DNA from: Candidatus Schekmanbacteria bacterium
Lineage (GTDB): Bacteria; CSSED10-310; JACPHN01
Assembly (NCBI GenBank): GCA_016188575.1
Contig: JACPHN010000079.1
Span: 1 to 5,892, forward strand
DNA: 5,892 nt
Direction of reading: 5' to 3'
Part shown: piece by piece, positions 321-5,892 of the stretch
Position numbering within the stretch: the stretch's first letter is position 1
Layout of the letters: each line of letters opens with the position of its first letter
Translations under genes and position numbers: made by a program
Notes under the pieces: model-generated
The model's database searches: none
The model's input: the letters and a program-made list of their open reading frames with translations, nothing else
Told to the model about the DNA's origin: nothing

Positions 321-1562
321 TCACCGCCGCGCCTCGGTCGCGCTGGTCGCGGCCACCGAGCCGCGCATTCGCTTCGCCATACGAGCCAGCCCGCGCAGTA
401 GCCCCCTGGCCAGCCGGCCCGCCAGGCACACGGCGACCGCGACAATCATCGTCGAGAAGGCCAGCTCGTGAAGAGCGCCCGTGTCCATCGCGCTCGAAGT
501 CGCGAAGGCGTGGCGCGCCACCGCCTCGAGCAGCGCCGGATACCCGGCCACCTTGCTCGCCAGCATCGGCAGGGCACCATGGAGAAACCAACCCCAAACC
601 GCGATGCTGGCAAACGAGTACGCCGTCAGGATGACCGTCGTGGCCGCGGGCCACGGCAGTGGAGGCGTCGCCCCTCCGCGCGAGCGGACCGCGAAATGAC
701 GGATGATGCGGGCGGGCTGACTCCCCAGGTTGGTCACACCCAGCGCATCGGCCACCAGCCAGTAGCCGTCGAACCGGAAGATCGGATTCAGCGAGAATAC
801 GCAGCTTCCAGCGAGCAAGAGCAAGGCGACGCGCAGCGGCTCCCAGCCGGTCCAGGCGTAGACCAACGCGTAGGCGGCGCCGACCAGGAGCTGGAAATAG
901 GTTCCACCAAGGTCCACCATGACGCGCTGCCATCGTTTCAGCTCCCAGGCCGCGCTGACATCGCTGTAGAACGCCGGGTAAAGCAGATAGACCGTGAAGC
1001 CGATCGTGCTCGGCTGCGCGCCGAACCGGACGCAGGCAGCGGCATGGCCAAGCTCGTGCGCGAAGATGGACACCAGCAGCAGCGCATAACCGGGCCAGAA
1101 GCTGGCCGCCTGAAACGCGACCGTCATGCCCTCGGCGTAGGCCAGCACGGCGGCGACGCCGGCGCCGATGAGCGCGCAGATCGCGACGGCGGGCGAAAAC
1201 GCGAGCTCCAGGCCGGAAGCCAGGTAGCGTACCCATGACTGCGGCACGAGCGGAATGCGGAACCAGAATCCCTGCCCTTCGGCCCGCGAATCGGACTCCA
1301 ACTTCCGGATGCGCTGATCGAGCGTTGCGTACAGGGTCTCGATCTCGCCCGCGCTGATCTCGCGGCCCAGACGAGCAGTCAGGTGCGCCGCGACCTGGCC
1401 AGCCCCAAGACCGCTGGTTCCCAGCCTGAGCAGGTGATAGGCGCTCGGAGAAAGGCGCATGTACCTGCCGTTTCGTCCCTCCAGCATGTACACCGGCCCG
1501 CTTTCGGACGTATCGACCAGGAGCCGGTCGTCCAGACCGCGTATGCCCGAAAGATCGATCAT
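321..1562 (-). CDS. M50 (site-2-type) membrane zinc protease with N-terminal PqqD-like region; probable RiPP leader peptidase
   Basis: This 413-residue protein carries HELGH at residues 169-173, the zinc-binding and catalytic HExxH of M50 metalloproteases. It also has LNPIFRFDGYW at 258-268, the second family motif, whose Asp265 is the expected third zinc ligand. About six hydrophobic segments are visible (near 120-144, 154-178, 218-238, 243-258, 305-331 and 364-386), placing both motifs in the membrane. Residues 10-95 are soluble and resemble PqqD-like/RRE winged-helix regions: a GPVYMLEGRNGRYMRLS strand pair, then helices. This suggests the protease itself grips a leader peptide. M50 proteases occur in RiPP operons, for example YydH in the yyd epipeptide locus, where leader removal is proposed. 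The start at 1562 is preceded by GGGGAG 7 bases upstream and lies 13 bases after the upstream gene's stop, indicating translational linkage. Earlier in-frame ATGs would overlap that gene. The exact substrate is inferred from context. Confidence 0.88.
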   Translation of the reverse strand: MIDLSGIRGLDDRLLVDTSESGPVYMLEGRNGRYMRLSPSAYHLLRLGTSGLGAGQVAAHLTARLGREISAGEIETLYATLDQRIRKLESDSRAEGQGFWFRIPLVPQSWVRYLASGLELAFSPAVAICALIGAGVAAVLAYAEGMTVAFQAASFWPGYALLLVSIFAHELGHAAACVRFGAQPSTIGFTVYLLYPAFYSDVSAAWELKRWQRVMVDLGGTYFQLLVGAAYALVYAWTGWEPLRVALLLLAGSCVFSLNPIFRFDGYWLVADALGVTNLGSQPARIIRHFAVRSRGGATPPLPWPAATTVILTAYSFASIAVWGWFLHGALPMLASKVAGYPALLEAVARHAFATSSAMDTGALHELAFSTMIVAVAVCLAGRLARGLLRGLARMAKRMRGSVAATSATEARR

Positions 1563-1575
1563 GCCCAGCTCCCCG

Positions 1576-2550
1576 TCACGCGCACGCCAGGGTCTCGGGA
1601 GCGGCGGCCGCCGCCCCGCGGTTCTCCAGTCCATCCCGCCAGCACCGCTCGCCGAGGCCAAGATGCCGGGCGAGCGCCTCGCATTGTTCCAGGAATTCGG
1701 CGACGACCTCTCGCCACCGCGGCAGCGGCAAGGGGTCCAGCAGCGCCAGCGACTCGCCAACCGTCTCGCGGATCGTCGTCAGGAGCCAGGTACCATGCTC
1801 GCCGCGGTACAGCGCTGCGGCAATCCGGCGGCGAAGCTGGTCGCGGTCGGCGCCGCGCTGGGGTTGCGGCCGTTCGCCCAGCATCCGCACAAGCAACAGC
1901 GACGGCATGCCACTGTCCAGGTCATCCTGCCAATCCTGGAGGTCGTCCCAGAGCTGAACCGCGATGTCGAAGCGATCCAGAGCCGCGACCAGGCGCTCGT
2001 AGCACCGGTCGTCTCCCGCCAGCTCGGCGAGTCCGGCGATGACCACCGCCGTCATGGCGCTCTTGCCCGTAGCGATCTCGAAGGCGACGGGTCGCGTAAA
2101 CTCGGCCCAGGGCCGCTCGCCGCGAGCGAACTGCGCCTCCAGCAGACAGGCCTGGGCGTAGCGGGCCATCTGCTGGCGAAACCGGCTCCAGAACGGGCTG
2201 CGCGGTGGGAACAGGGCGAACAGCCGGTCGTAGCATTCGAGCTGCATGAATTGCACGCCAAAGGCGGCATCCGCCTGCTCCACGCCGACGCGCGTCGGGT
2301 CCATGAGCTTGTCGTACAGAAAGATGGAATTCGCCAGCAGATGCAGAGCCACGTTCAGGGAAGCGACATCGGCCGCGCGGATACCGGGGAAGGCATCGAG
2401 GAAGAAATACGGATAGCAATCGAAGATGGACGGGCGCGGATTGGTGCTCAGCTTGAGGCCAGACGGCCACCCGCTCTGCAGGTCATGCACAGCCAGGCGA
2501 ACGGCCTCGATTTCCTTGCGGAAGTGCTCTTTCAAGGTGCGTGACGACAT
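1576..2550 (-). CDS. Class I isoprenoid-synthase-fold enzyme; candidate peptide prenyltransferase (ComQ-like)
   Basis: This predicted soluble, mostly helical protein of 324 residues has the usual length of trans-prenyl synthases. It has two acidic motifs placed as in the class I isoprenoid synthase fold. The first, FLYDKLMD (Asp80, Asp84), is DxxxD rather than the usual DDxxD. The second, QLWDDLQDWQDDLDSG (Asp202, Asp203, Asp206, Asp209, Asp210), would bind Mg2+-diphosphate. ATGKSAM at 161-166 resembles the substrate-binding Lys region of polyprenyl synthases. Enzymes of this fold condense or cyclise prenyl diphosphates. One known member, ComQ, instead transfers a prenyl group to Trp of the ComX pheromone. 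The neighbouring Trp-rich precursor makes a ComQ-like role attractive, but this is inference; a small terpenoid product is the alternative. The start at 2550 has GAGAGG about 6 bases upstream. The gene follows the precursor after a structured 138-base gap and is almost joined to the protease gene. The C-terminus is Ala-rich and probably disordered. Confidence 0.78.
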   Translation of the reverse strand: MSSRTLKEHFRKEIEAVRLAVHDLQSGWPSGLKLSTNPRPSIFDCYPYFFLDAFPGIRAADVASLNVALHLLANSIFLYDKLMDPTRVGVEQADAAFGVQFMQLECYDRLFALFPPRSPFWSRFRQQMARYAQACLLEAQFARGERPWAEFTRPVAFEIATGKSAMTAVVIAGLAELAGDDRCYERLVAALDRFDIAVQLWDDLQDWQDDLDSGMPSLLLVRMLGERPQPQRGADRDQLRRRIAAALYRGEHGTWLLTTIRETVGESLALLDPLPLPRWREVVAEFLEQCEALARHLGLGERCWRDGLENRGAAAAAPETLACA

Positions 2551-2572
2551 TGGTATCCTCTCGGCCGGGCAG

Positions 2573-2677
2573 CCGCCGCCGGCAGCGCCGGGGCGGCGGT
2601 CCCGCGAACATCCGTGGCACCCGCTCTCCCCGACCGGCGAGGAGAGCGAGCATCGTTCGGCCGGCGCTCGGGGCGCC
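2573..2677 (-). promoter_or_regulatory. Three predicted stem-loops between precursor and isoprenoid-fold gene
   Basis: The 138-base gap after the precursor stop contains three inverted repeats that would form hairpins in the minus-strand transcript. The first, 2663-2677, has a 5-bp GGCGC/GCGCC stem and a 5-base loop. The second, 2622-2648, has an 11-bp stem (one G-U pair in the transcript) and a 5-base loop. The third, 2573-2599, has an 8-bp CCGCCGCC/GGCGGCGG stem and an 11-base loop. None is followed by a U-run, so they do not look like a standard intrinsic terminator. Stable hairpins behind a precursor gene commonly protect that mRNA segment or partly reduce read-through, so that precursor exceeds enzyme. 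That role here is inferred. High GC makes chance short stems common; the 11-bp stem is the most convincing. Confidence 0.5.
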
Positions 2678-2688
2678 GCACGGGCTGT

Positions 2689-2880
2689 CTAATTCCAGTA
2701 GATCCAGGAGCAGCTTTCATATTTTCCCGAGCAGCTCGTGAAGCCCCAACAGATCGCTTCGTTCAGGGCGGCGGCAAGCTCCAGGCGGCGCTCGAGCAGC
2801 TCGATGTCCATGTCTTCGAGGTTCAAGGTGGTGATTTCCTCGATTTCGGTCAGCTCTGGGGTCAGGGTTGTGTCGTTCAT
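2689..2880 (-). CDS. RiPP precursor peptide, 63 residues, Cys/Trp/Tyr-rich core
   Basis: The peptide divides sharply. Residues 1-41 form an acidic, Cys-free leader rich in Leu, Glu and Thr, with a likely amphipathic helix (LEDMDIELLERRLELAAAL). Residues 42-63 form a core with three Cys (44, 50, 57), three Trp (45, 59, 62), two Tyr (54, 61) and Phe47. The core repeats with period seven: FTSCSGK, YESCSWI, YWN. It ends in WIYWN with no trailing basic or Gly-Gly processing site. The start at 2880 is supported by an excellent ribosome site, AGGAGAAGG, with its AGGAG core 8 bases from the ATG. The gene sits 64 bases after the radical SAM gene and ahead of the isoprenoid-fold and protease genes, the usual context for a modified peptide. 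I do not recognise a named precursor family. Candidate modifications are Cys thioether links, three-residue cyclophanes at aromatic-x-Ser/Asn, epimerisation, and prenylation of Trp or Cys. Confidence 0.88.
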   Translation of the reverse strand: MNDTTLTPELTEIEEITTLNLEDMDIELLERRLELAAALNEAICWGFTSCSGKYESCSWIYWN

Positions 2881-2944
2881 GAGACCTTCTCCTCTTCGGC
2901 GGGTGGGGTTTCCCCCGGGGTTGACGAACGTGGCGCCTACGAGC

Positions 2945-4459
2945 TCAGGCGCCGGTGGTAAGGGAAATGTTCAGGCCGTCACAGCCTGGTCCGGCGTGCG
3001 GAACGGTGACCTGGCCGGCCGCATGAGCCGTGAAGCCGGCGGCGACGCTTTCGCGGAAGCGCGCGGAAAATCCGTCGCAGCAGTTAGCAAAGAAGCCACC
3101 GCGCGAGGCCTCGGCGGCGACGCAACAGCCCCCGCCGCAATAGAGGGCGTAACGGCACCGGCTACATGTTGGATTGCTGGTGACATCGCGGTTTCGCCAC
3201 TTGGCGTGGTTGGTCTCGTCGAGCACCAGACCCTCGCTCTCCGCAATGCGGCCGATGCGGAGTCGCGGATCTCCATTGCGCTCCCAGCACGCGTAGACGT
3301 CGCCGAGCGCATCGAACACATACATGCCGTTGTGGGCACCGCAGAAGCTCGGGCGAAACCCCGGCAAGGGATCGTCGCGCTTCGCGAAGATGCCCTGCGC
3401 GCGCTTCTCGAGCCCATCGAGCGGGCGCTCGATGAAGGCGATTTCCGGGTGCTGCCTCCGCAGCTCCGCCAACGCTTGGTCGAGCTGCCGCGAAGTGTAG
3501 ATTTCGGGAGCCTGCTGCTTCTGGTCGTTGTCTACGGCCCGCGCCGCGTAGACGCGCAAGTTCTGGCGAAGATGCCACTGCCGGGCGACGATCTCCCGGG
3601 CAAAGGCCGGTAGGTGCGCGATGTTCGAGCGATCGACGTTGACTCTGAGGTCGACGCAGACACCGCGCTCCAGGGCCATGGAAACATTGCGGGTAATCTG
3701 CTCGAAGGATCCTTGCCCATCGGCGTGGACGCGCCGCCGGTCGTGCTCTGCGGGCGGGCCATCCAAGGTGATCTGCAGCCAGTTGACGCCGTCTCCGCCG
3801 AGCAGGTGGCTGAACCGGTGGAGCTCGGTGCCATTGGTGACCGCCCACAGATTCGCCTTGCCCTGCGAAACGGCGTTTTCGCAGATCCGCTCGACCGTCG
3901 CCAGACTTCTGGGCAAGAAAGGCTCACCTCCGAAGAGGCCGATGTTGCGCACCACCTGCTCGCCAGCAGGGGCTCCGTGATCGGCTTCGATGCGGGGCAT
4001 GGCGGCGAAGATGCGGTCCACGAGCTCGGGTGACATGACGCGCAGCAGGCCGGAGCGCTCGCCGCCGGCCCGCAGCGGGGCCTGAAAGCAGTAGGTGCAT
4101 CGCAGATTGCAGTCGTAGGTCGGCATGAAGACGTAGGTCGGCCGCCGGGCCTTGCCAAGCGCATGCAGCTTGTGCGCCAGGCGCGCGAAGAGCCGCTGCT
4201 CTTCGTCAACCGAGAGCTCCGTGAGGTAGCCGCGTTTGCGGAGCGTCTCGATGGTGCGGTCCGACGGGACCCGCGGCGCCGCCGGCGCGGGTAGCCCGGC
4301 CACGGGCCGCGCCGGTCGGCCGGGATCGAGCGCGGCGAGATAGGTCGCGACGAACCGGGAAACCTTGTCGTAAGCACCCGAGTAGCCGTGGACCAGGAGC
4401 ACCTCGTCAGGGAGGTTCGGGAGCTCGACGTGGATGTTGTAACTGCTGGCACGTAACAT
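2945..4459 (-). CDS. Radical SAM/SPASM peptide maturase
   Basis: This 504-residue protein has the radical SAM cluster motif CNLRCTYC (Cys117, Cys121, Cys124), which binds the [4Fe-4S] that cleaves S-adenosylmethionine. It also has the SAM-binding FGGEP at 176-180. The C-terminus is a complete SPASM domain for auxiliary clusters: Cys373, then G-x4-C at 386-391, then C-x2-C-x5-C-x3-C at 432-445, then Cys460/461. Residues 8-100 (LVHGYSGAYDKVS and following helices) match the leader-binding-like N-terminal region common in peptide maturases. SPASM enzymes of this type form thioether, C-C or C-O links, or epimerise residues, in peptides. The adjacent Cys/aromatic-rich precursor is the evident substrate. 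The start at 4459 has AAGGAAAG about 9 bases upstream. The frame stays open to 4894, but that extension crosses the sigma-54 promoter and is low-complexity, so it is not coding. The chemistry performed cannot be read from the sequence. Confidence 0.93.
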   Translation of the reverse strand: MLRASSYNIHVELPNLPDEVLLVHGYSGAYDKVSRFVATYLAALDPGRPARPVAGLPAPAAPRVPSDRTIETLRKRGYLTELSVDEEQRLFARLAHKLHALGKARRPTYVFMPTYDCNLRCTYCFQAPLRAGGERSGLLRVMSPELVDRIFAAMPRIEADHGAPAGEQVVRNIGLFGGEPFLPRSLATVERICENAVSQGKANLWAVTNGTELHRFSHLLGGDGVNWLQITLDGPPAEHDRRRVHADGQGSFEQITRNVSMALERGVCVDLRVNVDRSNIAHLPAFAREIVARQWHLRQNLRVYAARAVDNDQKQQAPEIYTSRQLDQALAELRRQHPEIAFIERPLDGLEKRAQGIFAKRDDPLPGFRPSFCGAHNGMYVFDALGDVYACWERNGDPRLRIGRIAESEGLVLDETNHAKWRNRDVTSNPTCSRCRYALYCGGGCCVAAEASRGGFFANCCDGFSARFRESVAAGFTAHAAGQVTVPHAGPGCDGLNISLTTGA

Positions 4460-4559: not shown

Positions 4560-4587
4560 GGCCGGGACCGGTGTGCGATCCCCGGCC
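4560..4587. repeat. Inverted repeat abutting the -24 element
   Basis: GGCCGGG (4560-4566) and CCCGGCC (4581-4587) form a perfect 7-bp inverted repeat with a 14-base spacer, beginning one base upstream of the sigma-54 element on its upstream side. It could bind a dimeric regulator or form DNA structure. High GC makes such repeats fairly frequent, so the functional meaning is uncertain. Confidence 0.35.
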
Positions 4588-4688
4588 AGAACGAGGTGTA
4601 ATCGCGAGATCTGGCGGTTTGCGGCGTCGGGCGGACCCCAAGTGGGGCGGCTGTGGCGGGGGTTCGGGCGACCGCCGGGTGCGGAGGA

Positions 4689-4727
4689 GGAAACTTGCCG
4701 TTTGCGCAAGCGATCAGATGGAAACTT
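4689..4727. promoter_or_regulatory. Candidate upstream activator sites: GGAAACTT direct repeats
   Basis: GGAAACTT occurs at 4689-4696 and 4720-4727, 31 bp apart, about three helical turns, so both copies face the same side of the DNA. Between them, partly overlapping the first, is an inverted repeat CTTGC (4694-4698) / GCAAG (4706-4710). The sites lie about 130-170 bp upstream of the -24 element, the usual distance for enhancer-binding protein sites. They also lie just upstream of the regulator gene, which would allow autoregulation. The binding protein is inferred. Confidence 0.42.
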
Positions 4728-4788
4728 CTGGTTGACAATCGCCCGTCGCAGGTCCCACCGACACCCCATCCCGATCGCCCCGATGCGC

Positions 4789-4818
4789 TTGCTTCGGTGC
4801 CGCTCGCCAGTTTACAGT
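4789..4818 (+). promoter_or_regulatory. Possible sigma-70-type promoter of the regulator gene
   Basis: TTGCTT (4789-4794) and TACAGT (4813-4818), separated by 18 bases, resemble -35 and -10 hexamers with 3 of 6 and 4 of 6 consensus matches. Transcription would begin near 4825, about 24 bases before the proposed TTG start. The match is weak, but the placement is sensible. Confidence 0.33.
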
Positions 4819-4848
4819 AGGGCCGTTGGCTGGCAGCGGAGCGCGATC

Positions 4849-5892
4849 TTGAACCAGGCAAATCCCCTCGCACCGGCCGGGCCGGCAGCTCCATCCGCGG
4901 ACGCCTCGTCGGTTCCGGCGCACGCGACGCTCACGATTGCATTCGGCGATATCGTGCGCCAGGAGGTCCTGCGGGCGGATGCCGTGCTCGTAGGCCGTGG
5001 CGCCGATTGTGACATCCGCATTCCCGATCCCGGTTTGTCGCGTCGCCACTTCCGCCTGACGCGCCACGCCGATGGCGCGTGGGTCGTCGAAGACCTCGAC
5101 AGTCACGCAGGAACCTGGCTCGGCGACCAGCGAATCCGCGAGCCCACGCCGTTGCACAGCGGCGATTGCCTGCGTCACGGGGGTTCGACCACGCTTTTTG
5201 AGGCGCTTGCCGAGTCTCCGTCCTTGCTGAGCGGCGACCCCGGGCGCGACCTGGCCAACGTCCACCTGCTGCTGAGCACCGTAAGAGACCTCATGAGCGC
5301 GGCATCGCTCGAGAGCTTGCTCCGCACCCTGGTCGACCGCGCGGTGCAGGTGGCGCAGGCCGATCGCGGCGGCCTCTTTCTCGCGTCCGCCGGCGGCACC
5401 CTCGAGGGCATCATTGCCCGCGACGCTGGGGGAAATGACCTCCCGCCGGCCGCATCACTCACCCGATCGCTCCCGAGTCGGGCGCTGTCCGCCAATCGCC
5501 CGATCATCGTCACCGATACCGATGCCAGCGGCGATGCCTTTTTTCCGAGCGACAGCATGCTGCGGAGCGGCTTGCGCAGCATCCTCTGCGTGCCGTTGCC
5601 CGGCCGAGCCGGCCCGACGGGCGTCCTGTATGTCGACGCCACCCGGCCGGTGAGTGCTTTTGGGCCGAGCGATCTGGCGCTTTTCGAGGCGCTGGCGACC
5701 CACAGCGCCATCGCCATCGAACGGGCGCGCCTGCTCGACGCCGAAGCCGCGCGCATCCGCCAGGAAAAGTCCCGCCTCCAGGACGAGAATGCCGCCCTGC
5801 GCCGAAAGCTCGGCAACGACCCACCCATTGGAGACAGTCAGGCGATGCGGCGCGCCCTGGATCTGGCCCGGCGTATCGCTCCTTCGGACGTG
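4849..5892 (+). CDS. FHA-GAF sigma-54-dependent transcriptional activator, C-terminus beyond the window
   Basis: The visible 348 residues comprise an FHA domain (about 27-118), a GAF domain (about 138-292), a short coiled coil (about 293-321), and the first residues of a sigma-54-interacting AAA+ domain (PIGDSQAMRRALDLARRIAP, from 326). The window ends before the expected Walker A motif. FHA hallmarks are GR at 49-50 and SxxH at 64-67, but the usual Asn before Gly-Thr is Ala87. FHA domains bind phosphothreonine, so input from Ser/Thr kinases is likely; GAF domains sense small ligands. The output would be ATP-driven opening of sigma-54 promoters such as the divergent one at 4543-4559. I chose TTG at 4849 because GGAG lies 7 bases upstream and a plausible -10 lies at 4813. 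An in-frame ATG at 4783 would add 22 residues but has no ribosome site. The family assignment is firm; the target is inferred from adjacency. Confidence 0.9.
   Translation, partial: MNQANPLAPAGPAAPSADASSVPAHATLTIAFGDIVRQEVLRADAVLVGRGADCDIRIPDPGLSRRHFRLTRHADGAWVVEDLDSHAGTWLGDQRIREPTPLHSGDCLRHGGSTTLFEALAESPSLLSGDPGRDLANVHLLLSTVRDLMSAASLESLLRTLVDRAVQVAQADRGGLFLASAGGTLEGIIARDAGGNDLPPAASLTRSLPSRALSANRPIIVTDTDASGDAFFPSDSMLRSGLRSILCVPLPGRAGPTGVLYVDATRPVSAFGPSDLALFEALATHSAIAIERARLLDAEAARIRQEKSRLQDENAALRRKLGNDPPIGDSQAMRRALDLARRIAPSDV

Follow-up and report, generated by a model that had tools for sequence, protein, structure and literature searches.

A bacterial RiPP gene cluster that may combine radical SAM modification and tryptophan prenylation on one peptide

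Introduction

Prenylation and radical SAM crosslinking are valued peptide modifications. To our knowledge, no characterised ribosomal pathway combines the two on one peptide. A compact locus from Candidatus Schekmanbacteria raises the question of whether a single short precursor could receive both. The locus lies on a stretch of 5892 bases (called the window here), which is one whole contig (C199) of a 9.2 Mb genome. Seven further genomes represent the host phylum in the comparison set. Sequence comparisons and a predicted structure lead us to favour, as the probable reading, a RiPP that would be radical-modified and Trp-prenylated on the same core and freed of its leader by an M50 protease.

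Results and Discussion

The gene cluster

The window encodes four genes on the minus strand in the order radical SAM/SPASM maturase, 63-residue precursor, class I isoprenoid-fold enzyme and M50 protease. A sequence-only reading of this DNA had named the same four genes in the same order, and all of them are present. The set is beyond chance because two further genomes carry the same four genes together on a single strand. A divergent gene on the plus strand (4573..5892) encodes an FHA-GAF protein (PF00498, 6.3e-19; PF01590, 1.8e-15) with a partial NifA-like match (1.6e-6). It is cut by the contig end, its start codon is not fixed, and it is at most a possible regulator. The end of this gene is present in multiple copies in the genome. 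Positions 1–190 and 5537–5892 of the window are repeats with 90–97% identity to other genome copies (C67, C89, C233 and C196), and the contig probably stops at both ends because of them. No exporter is present on the 5892-base contig; an exporter or cyclase partners may lie beyond its ends.

The precursor peptide

The precursor gene (2689..2880, minus strand) encodes the 63-residue peptide MNDTTLTPELTEIEEITTLNLEDMDIELLERRLELAAALNEAICWGFTSCSGKYESCSWIYWN. It is preceded by a strong ribosome-binding site (AGGAGAAGG), and its GC3 is 0.80 as compared with 0.82–0.83 in the neighbouring genes. The leader contains the motif LERRLE and is followed by the core region AICWGFTSCSGKYESCSWIYWN, with a predicted border between the two. 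The last 20 residues hold all three Cys and all three Trp residues. The core includes the triplets WGF and WIY and ends in WN. No close relative of the peptide was found. The leader motif LExR(L/T)E is common to the precursors of the window and of six other prenyltransferase loci (L013, L061 and L156–L159). As a search pattern, it matched 21 of the 5645 small open reading frames over all loci, a count that includes true precursors and duplicate loci.

The radical SAM/SPASM maturase

The maturase (2945..4459, minus strand) has 504 residues. It matches the Radical_SAM family (PF04055, 4.7e-13) and, above the cut-off of that model, the SPASM domain (TIGR04085). The CxxxCxxC motif is CNLRCTYC at residue 117, and the full set of seven SPASM cysteines is present (Cys 373, 391, 432, 435, 441, 445 and 460). 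CefB and PapB are its best full-length families. Both scores are far under the equivalog cut-offs (112.7 versus 600 bits for CefB, NF038107; 100.7 versus 340 bits for the PapB ranthipeptide maturase, NF047865), and membership in either family was rejected. Ranthipeptide/QhpD-type SPASM maturases (PapB, CefB, SCIFF) are also the best family matches of the radical SAM domains in Eisenbacteria and at a Bacteroidetes locus (L062). A YydG-type epimerase was looked for, and no epimerase family was among the best 25 matches. The nearest relatives found are encoded at L156 (7e-74) and L159 (2e-74), and they group with the window enzyme at 89/80 in the tree.

Radical SAM enzymes of the same type occur with an M50 gene and no prenyltransferase at L130, and with neither at L143–L148. 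At L130 (6068–10460), two genes for radical SAM/SPASM enzymes lie in tandem, accompanied by an M50 protease gene, ABC genes and a 49-residue precursor ending in ACINLCCWNCCFQI. At L144 (3063–3305), an 80-residue precursor-like reading frame ending in PLCCWNICWWIG is directly upstream of a relative of the window maturase.

The isoprenoid-fold enzyme

The isoprenoid-fold protein (1576..2550, minus strand; 324 residues) is nearly an orphan by sequence, with a Pfam match to Terpene_syn_C_2 at just E 0.022. A sequence search against PDB chains returned noise only (thermonucleases); a later profile matched polyprenyl synthases, MoeN5 and Ord1. The AlphaFold2 model (pLDDT 84.8) has the trans-prenyl synthase fold and shows the features of class I isoprenoid synthases. 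Polyprenyl synthases rank first in the fold search, and the model matches 4lob (Z 25.4, rmsd 2.5, 274 residues). Ord1, a Trp farnesyltransferase, was also matched with a probability of 1.00.

In an alignment of 18 sequences, D80, D84, Q199, D203 and D210 are invariant, and D202 and D206 are nearly so. The resulting motifs, DxxxD (D80xxxD84) and QxxDDxxD (Q199xxDDxxD206), are conserved across phyla at less than 25% identity. The DxxxD of the FARM and a Gln shortly before the Asp-rich SARM are both present, and since canonical synthases also carry this Gln, it does not discriminate on its own. The FARM of the window enzyme is DKLMD, which deviates from DDxxD, and the SARM is kept. The protein ends after the prenyltransferase domain and has no C-terminal terpene cyclase domain. 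Its product may keep a linear prenyl chain, or the cyclase may be encoded elsewhere.

The first search covered 145 genomes, nearly all of other phyla, and gave three further matches, all in peptide-cluster settings. One of these (L013, in genome G061) is a prenyltransferase domain fused to a squalene-cyclase-like toroid. A 55-residue precursor-like reading frame lies just upstream of this fusion, and the genes after the fusion encode, in turn, an ABC ATPase, an FG-GAP protein, an ABC permease and an M50 protease. In the other two (L014 and L015), which are two copies in genome G076, a radical SAM enzyme is the fusion partner of the prenyltransferase domain. The locus set was extended with profiles made from these first matches. 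Weak profile matches at L040, L060 and L098 turned out to be ordinary polyprenyl synthases and were kept as the outgroup; a RiPP context was looked for at L094, L095, L097 and L099, and none was seen.

The prenyltransferases form a group together with the PalQ orthologues and apart from the canonical polyprenyl synthases at 100/99, in a tree with only three canonical sequences and long branches. Six prenyltransferases (L013, L061 and L156–L159) share a 93/92 clade with the window enzyme, and each of the six has an LExR(L/T)E-type precursor alongside. An M50 gene accompanies most members of this clade, and the majority are prenyltransferase–cyclase fusions (L013 and L156–L159). The branching order of the window, L061 and L013 enzymes was not settled by the trees, in which their branches are long.

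The comparison with PalQ links the window enzyme to CHARACTERISED PEPTIDE PRENYLTRANSFERASES. PalQ from Paenibacillus alvei prenylates the Trp indole at C3 in vitro, and its motif residues are D89/D93 (FARM), Q197 and D200/D204 (SARM; PMC10853753). Matches from a single family in two genomes (G059 and G594) adjoin precursors of the nitrile-hydratase-leader type (NHLP). The G059 precursor exceeds the cut-off of TIGR03793 and has a core with a terminal Trp. In L091, the G059 protein, Asp89, Gln197 and Asp200 fall at exactly the published numbers of PalQ; the match of L091 to the window-led profile has a probability of 99.2% across 248 columns. Judged by its sequence, L091 is a PalQ orthologue and is homologous to the window enzyme. 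The identity between the window enzyme and the nearest PalQ orthologue is about 15–17% in alignments.

A 2026 review places PalQ, ComQ and the ChrPC P domain together as trans-IDS-like prenyltransferases that share a Gln conserved ahead of the second Asp motif and have to date all proved specific for Trp; ChrPC is a prenyltransferase fused to a cyclase domain (PMC13290415). The alignment, the profile match to the PalQ orthologue, the trees, the AlphaFold2 model and the fold search lead us to read the window protein as a putative trans-IDS-like peptide prenyltransferase of the PalQ/ChrPC kind. With PalQ/PalX it shares the isoprenoid synthase fold, the DxxxD and QxxDxxxD motifs and an adjoining RiPP precursor. 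In contrast, PalX has an NHLP leader and a required C-terminal Trp, whereas the window core ends in WN, and descriptions of the PalQ/PalX system mention neither a radical SAM nor an M50 gene. The ChrPC architecture is seen in the nearest relatives of the window enzyme (L013, L156–L159), whereas the window enzyme itself has no cyclase domain. ChrPC is known to us through the review, in which a radical SAM partner is not mentioned. The sequence-only reading had pointed to ComQ. ComQ does belong to the same fold superfamily and to a system with Trp prenylation of a ribosomal peptide (ComX), but PalQ and ChrPC are closer. The window enzyme keeps the SARM and has a deviant FARM; ComQ is the reverse, with a FARM and no SARM (PMC10853753), and ComQ/ComX has neither a radical SAM nor an M50 gene.

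The M50 protease

The predicted intramembrane metalloprotease (321..1562, minus strand; 413 residues) carries both motifs of the M50 family, HExxH (HELGH at 169) and NPxxxxDG (NPIFRFDG at 259). The HExxH, N-P and D-G residues are invariant with the proteins at L013 and L061, and further relatives are encoded at L156, L158 and L159. The best NCBIfam match is the daptide metalloprotease (daptide_HExxH, 1.1e-31), with YydH/LiaK at 3.6e-11. Both are under the cut-off, and membership in the daptide family (NF041824) was rejected at 110.3 bits versus a curated cut-off of 300. A weak PqqD-like match (E 0.0086) covers residues 20–66 at the N-terminus and suggests an RRE-like region. Searching with the M50 protein by itself gave mostly large M50 proteins of other kinds.

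M50 proteases act in the maturation of epipeptides and pearlins (PMC10885120). The epipeptide system (YydFGHIJ/EpeXEPAB) resembles the window in having a radical SAM enzyme and an M50 protease around a short peptide. It differs in having no prenyltransferase, and the YydH/LiaK model gives the window protease a lower score than the daptide model does.

Recurrence in other genomes

Two loci from the Bacteroidota group (L156 and L159) each encode a radical SAM enzyme, a precursor, a prenyltransferase–cyclase fusion and an M50 protease on one strand. The gene order at L156 is that of the window, plus one TPR-like gene between the precursor and the prenyltransferase. At L159, the order is radical SAM enzyme, precursor, M50 protease, one outer-membrane-type gene and prenyltransferase. 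At three more loci (L013, L061 and L158), the precursor, the prenyltransferase and the M50 protease are present and no radical SAM gene is seen; contig ends truncate L061 and L158. As the radical SAM–M50 pair (L130) and the prenyltransferase–M50 pair (L013, L061, L158) are also found apart, two modules are combined in the window.

In the phylum of G076 (Eisenbacteria), the prenyltransferase profile matched all 20 genomes searched. Where the gene is complete, its product is nearly always a fusion of 830–930 residues in which the prenyltransferase is N-terminal and its partner is a PapB/QhpD-like radical SAM/SPASM enzyme. Between one and three short precursors lie 3' of the fusion, for example MMGMKHLKVANGFGRSVPGARREASDICLVDYSHCPNADVCWIFDFNGGCPTSDSCVIDVQ. 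Every one of the 32 precursor cores has exactly one Trp, the position of which varies (CW, DWG, DWC). Within this set of related sequences, such a rule would fit a single Trp-directed modification.

The sequence-only reading had proposed a search for co-occurrence of the isoprenoid-fold family with short Cys/Trp-rich peptides and SPASM enzymes. The Eisenbacterial fusions and the full sets at L156 and L159 provide it. The prenyltransferase gene was not consistently absent from homologous loci, nor did it consistently sit in terpene clusters without a peptide; at L013, L061 and L158 it again accompanies the precursor and the M50 gene.

Several other features of the Eisenbacterial loci were observed. 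The fusion, the one-Trp Cys-rich precursors, an FG-GAP protein and ABC genes are kept across the sampled genomes (L014, L041–L059). A TPR/sigma54-type regulator of roughly 1030 residues adjoins the fusion cluster.

Proposed pathway and alternatives

In the pathway that we consider probable, PqqD/RRE-like regions of the enzymes would hold the LERRLE leader of the precursor. The SPASM enzyme would alter the core. Because of its likeness to PapB and CefB, Cys-centred thioether bonds would be the most likely outcome, with Trp/Tyr C–C crosslinks as the alternative; crosslinking is itself just one possible reaction of the maturase. The isoprenoid-fold enzyme would move a C5–C20 prenyl group from its diphosphate onto a Trp of the same core, and the M50 protease would remove the leader at the membrane, the expected location of a lipidated peptide. 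The analysis shows the gene content, the fold, the active-site residues, the kinship, the recurring gene set and the common leader motif. We infer the substrates, the acceptor residue, the prenyl length, the radical reaction, the order of the steps and the function of the product. That crosslinking and isoprenylation may meet on one peptide had been suggested from the letters of the window. The recurrence of the genes, the kinship of the prenyltransferase and its motifs support the suggestion, and the existence of a radical SAM–M50 cluster with no prenyltransferase (L130) qualifies it. The 15–17% identity to the PalQ orthologue, the deviant FARM, the lack of an exporter on the contig and the lack of any close relative of the precursor among those found count against our reading.

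A different acceptor is the first alternative to be weighed. The cluster and its prenyltransferase could be real and the acceptor be Cys or Tyr, with Trp being a target of the radical SAM enzyme, as in Trp-centred C–C crosslinks. Precursors adjacent to the prenyltransferase at L061 (Ignavibacteria) and L062 (Bacteroidetes) are rich in Cys and have no Trp, so Trp is not necessarily the acceptor. Related radical SAM enzymes at loci where no prenyltransferase is seen (L130, L144) adjoin Cys/Trp cores, for example CCWNCC, so Trp may serve the radical SAM enzyme. The WGF and WIY triplets of the window core would suit this explanation as well. However, the cores at L013 (with Trp) and at the PalQ-like L091 (with a terminal Trp) have no Cys, a single Trp is kept in all 32 Eisenbacterial cores, the Gln before the SARM is invariant, and every characterised trans-IDS-like peptide prenyltransferase uses Trp (PMC13290415). 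We consider a Cys or Tyr acceptor unlikely and keep Trp prenylation as the preferred reading.

It is very unlikely that the isoprenoid-fold protein has lost prenyl transfer and instead assists the maturase as a scaffold or by binding the substrate. The DKLMD sequence of the FARM and the weak similarity to characterised enzymes would be in line with such a role, but even at below 25% identity across phyla, these Asp residues and the Gln stay invariant or nearly so. Moreover, relatives are fused to terpene cyclase domains, two of which carry DxDD, and such a fusion is sensible only if a prenyl group is attached. We give hardly any credence to the gene being a chance neighbour that makes a separate small terpene or diphosphate: polyprenyl synthases do come first in the fold search, but the same partners recur at L156 and L159, a radical SAM fusion is found in Eisenbacteria, precursors adjoin the prenyltransferase in the majority of a dozen or so unrelated lineages, and the tree sets the family apart from polyprenyl synthases.

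Relation to known pathways

It is reasonably likely that these loci represent a multi-phylum RiPP class in which one precursor is SPASM-modified and Trp-terpenylated by a prenyltransferase of the PalQ/ChrPC type, with the RRE–M50 protein as the maturation peptidase. The products of relatives would be cyclised by the fused cyclase, and Eisenbacteria would fuse both activities phylum-wide. Searches of the full-text literature gave no paper in which a trans-IDS-like prenyltransferase works with a radical SAM maturase. This is weak evidence of novelty, as subscription papers, including the ChrPC study (Hubrich 2024), are missing from that literature. The parts are of known kinds (ComQ/PalQ/ChrPC, SPASM, YydH/daptide M50), and the combination appears to be new. 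We do not call it categorically new because the parts are known in kind and the ChrPC study is outside the literature covered. On the sequence features tested, the window proteins fall outside formal membership of the PapB, CefB, daptide and ChrPC-fusion families.

The compact four-gene cluster is directly testable in E. coli. The presence of the Eisenbacterial version in every sampled genome of this uncultured phylum suggests a core function there and not solely an antibiotic one. The prenyltransferase–cyclase relatives suggest the existence of radical-modified meroterpenoids of ribosomal origin.

Three loci deserve separate mention. At L092 (9442–12739), a terpene-synthase-like relative of the prenyltransferase is near two short leader-like peptides (73 and 79 residues) with no obvious core. 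At L061 (3–830), two very Cys-rich precursors without Trp lie beside the prenyltransferase and M50 genes, and the acceptor residue is puzzling. The L062 locus (8997–15934) encodes a separate cyclase-like toroid protein and a prenyltransferase fused to a radical SAM-like part with no visible CxxxCxxC. It also encodes a Cys-rich peptide of 76 residues, a second SPASM-like protein and a true radical SAM enzyme close to the SCIFF maturases.
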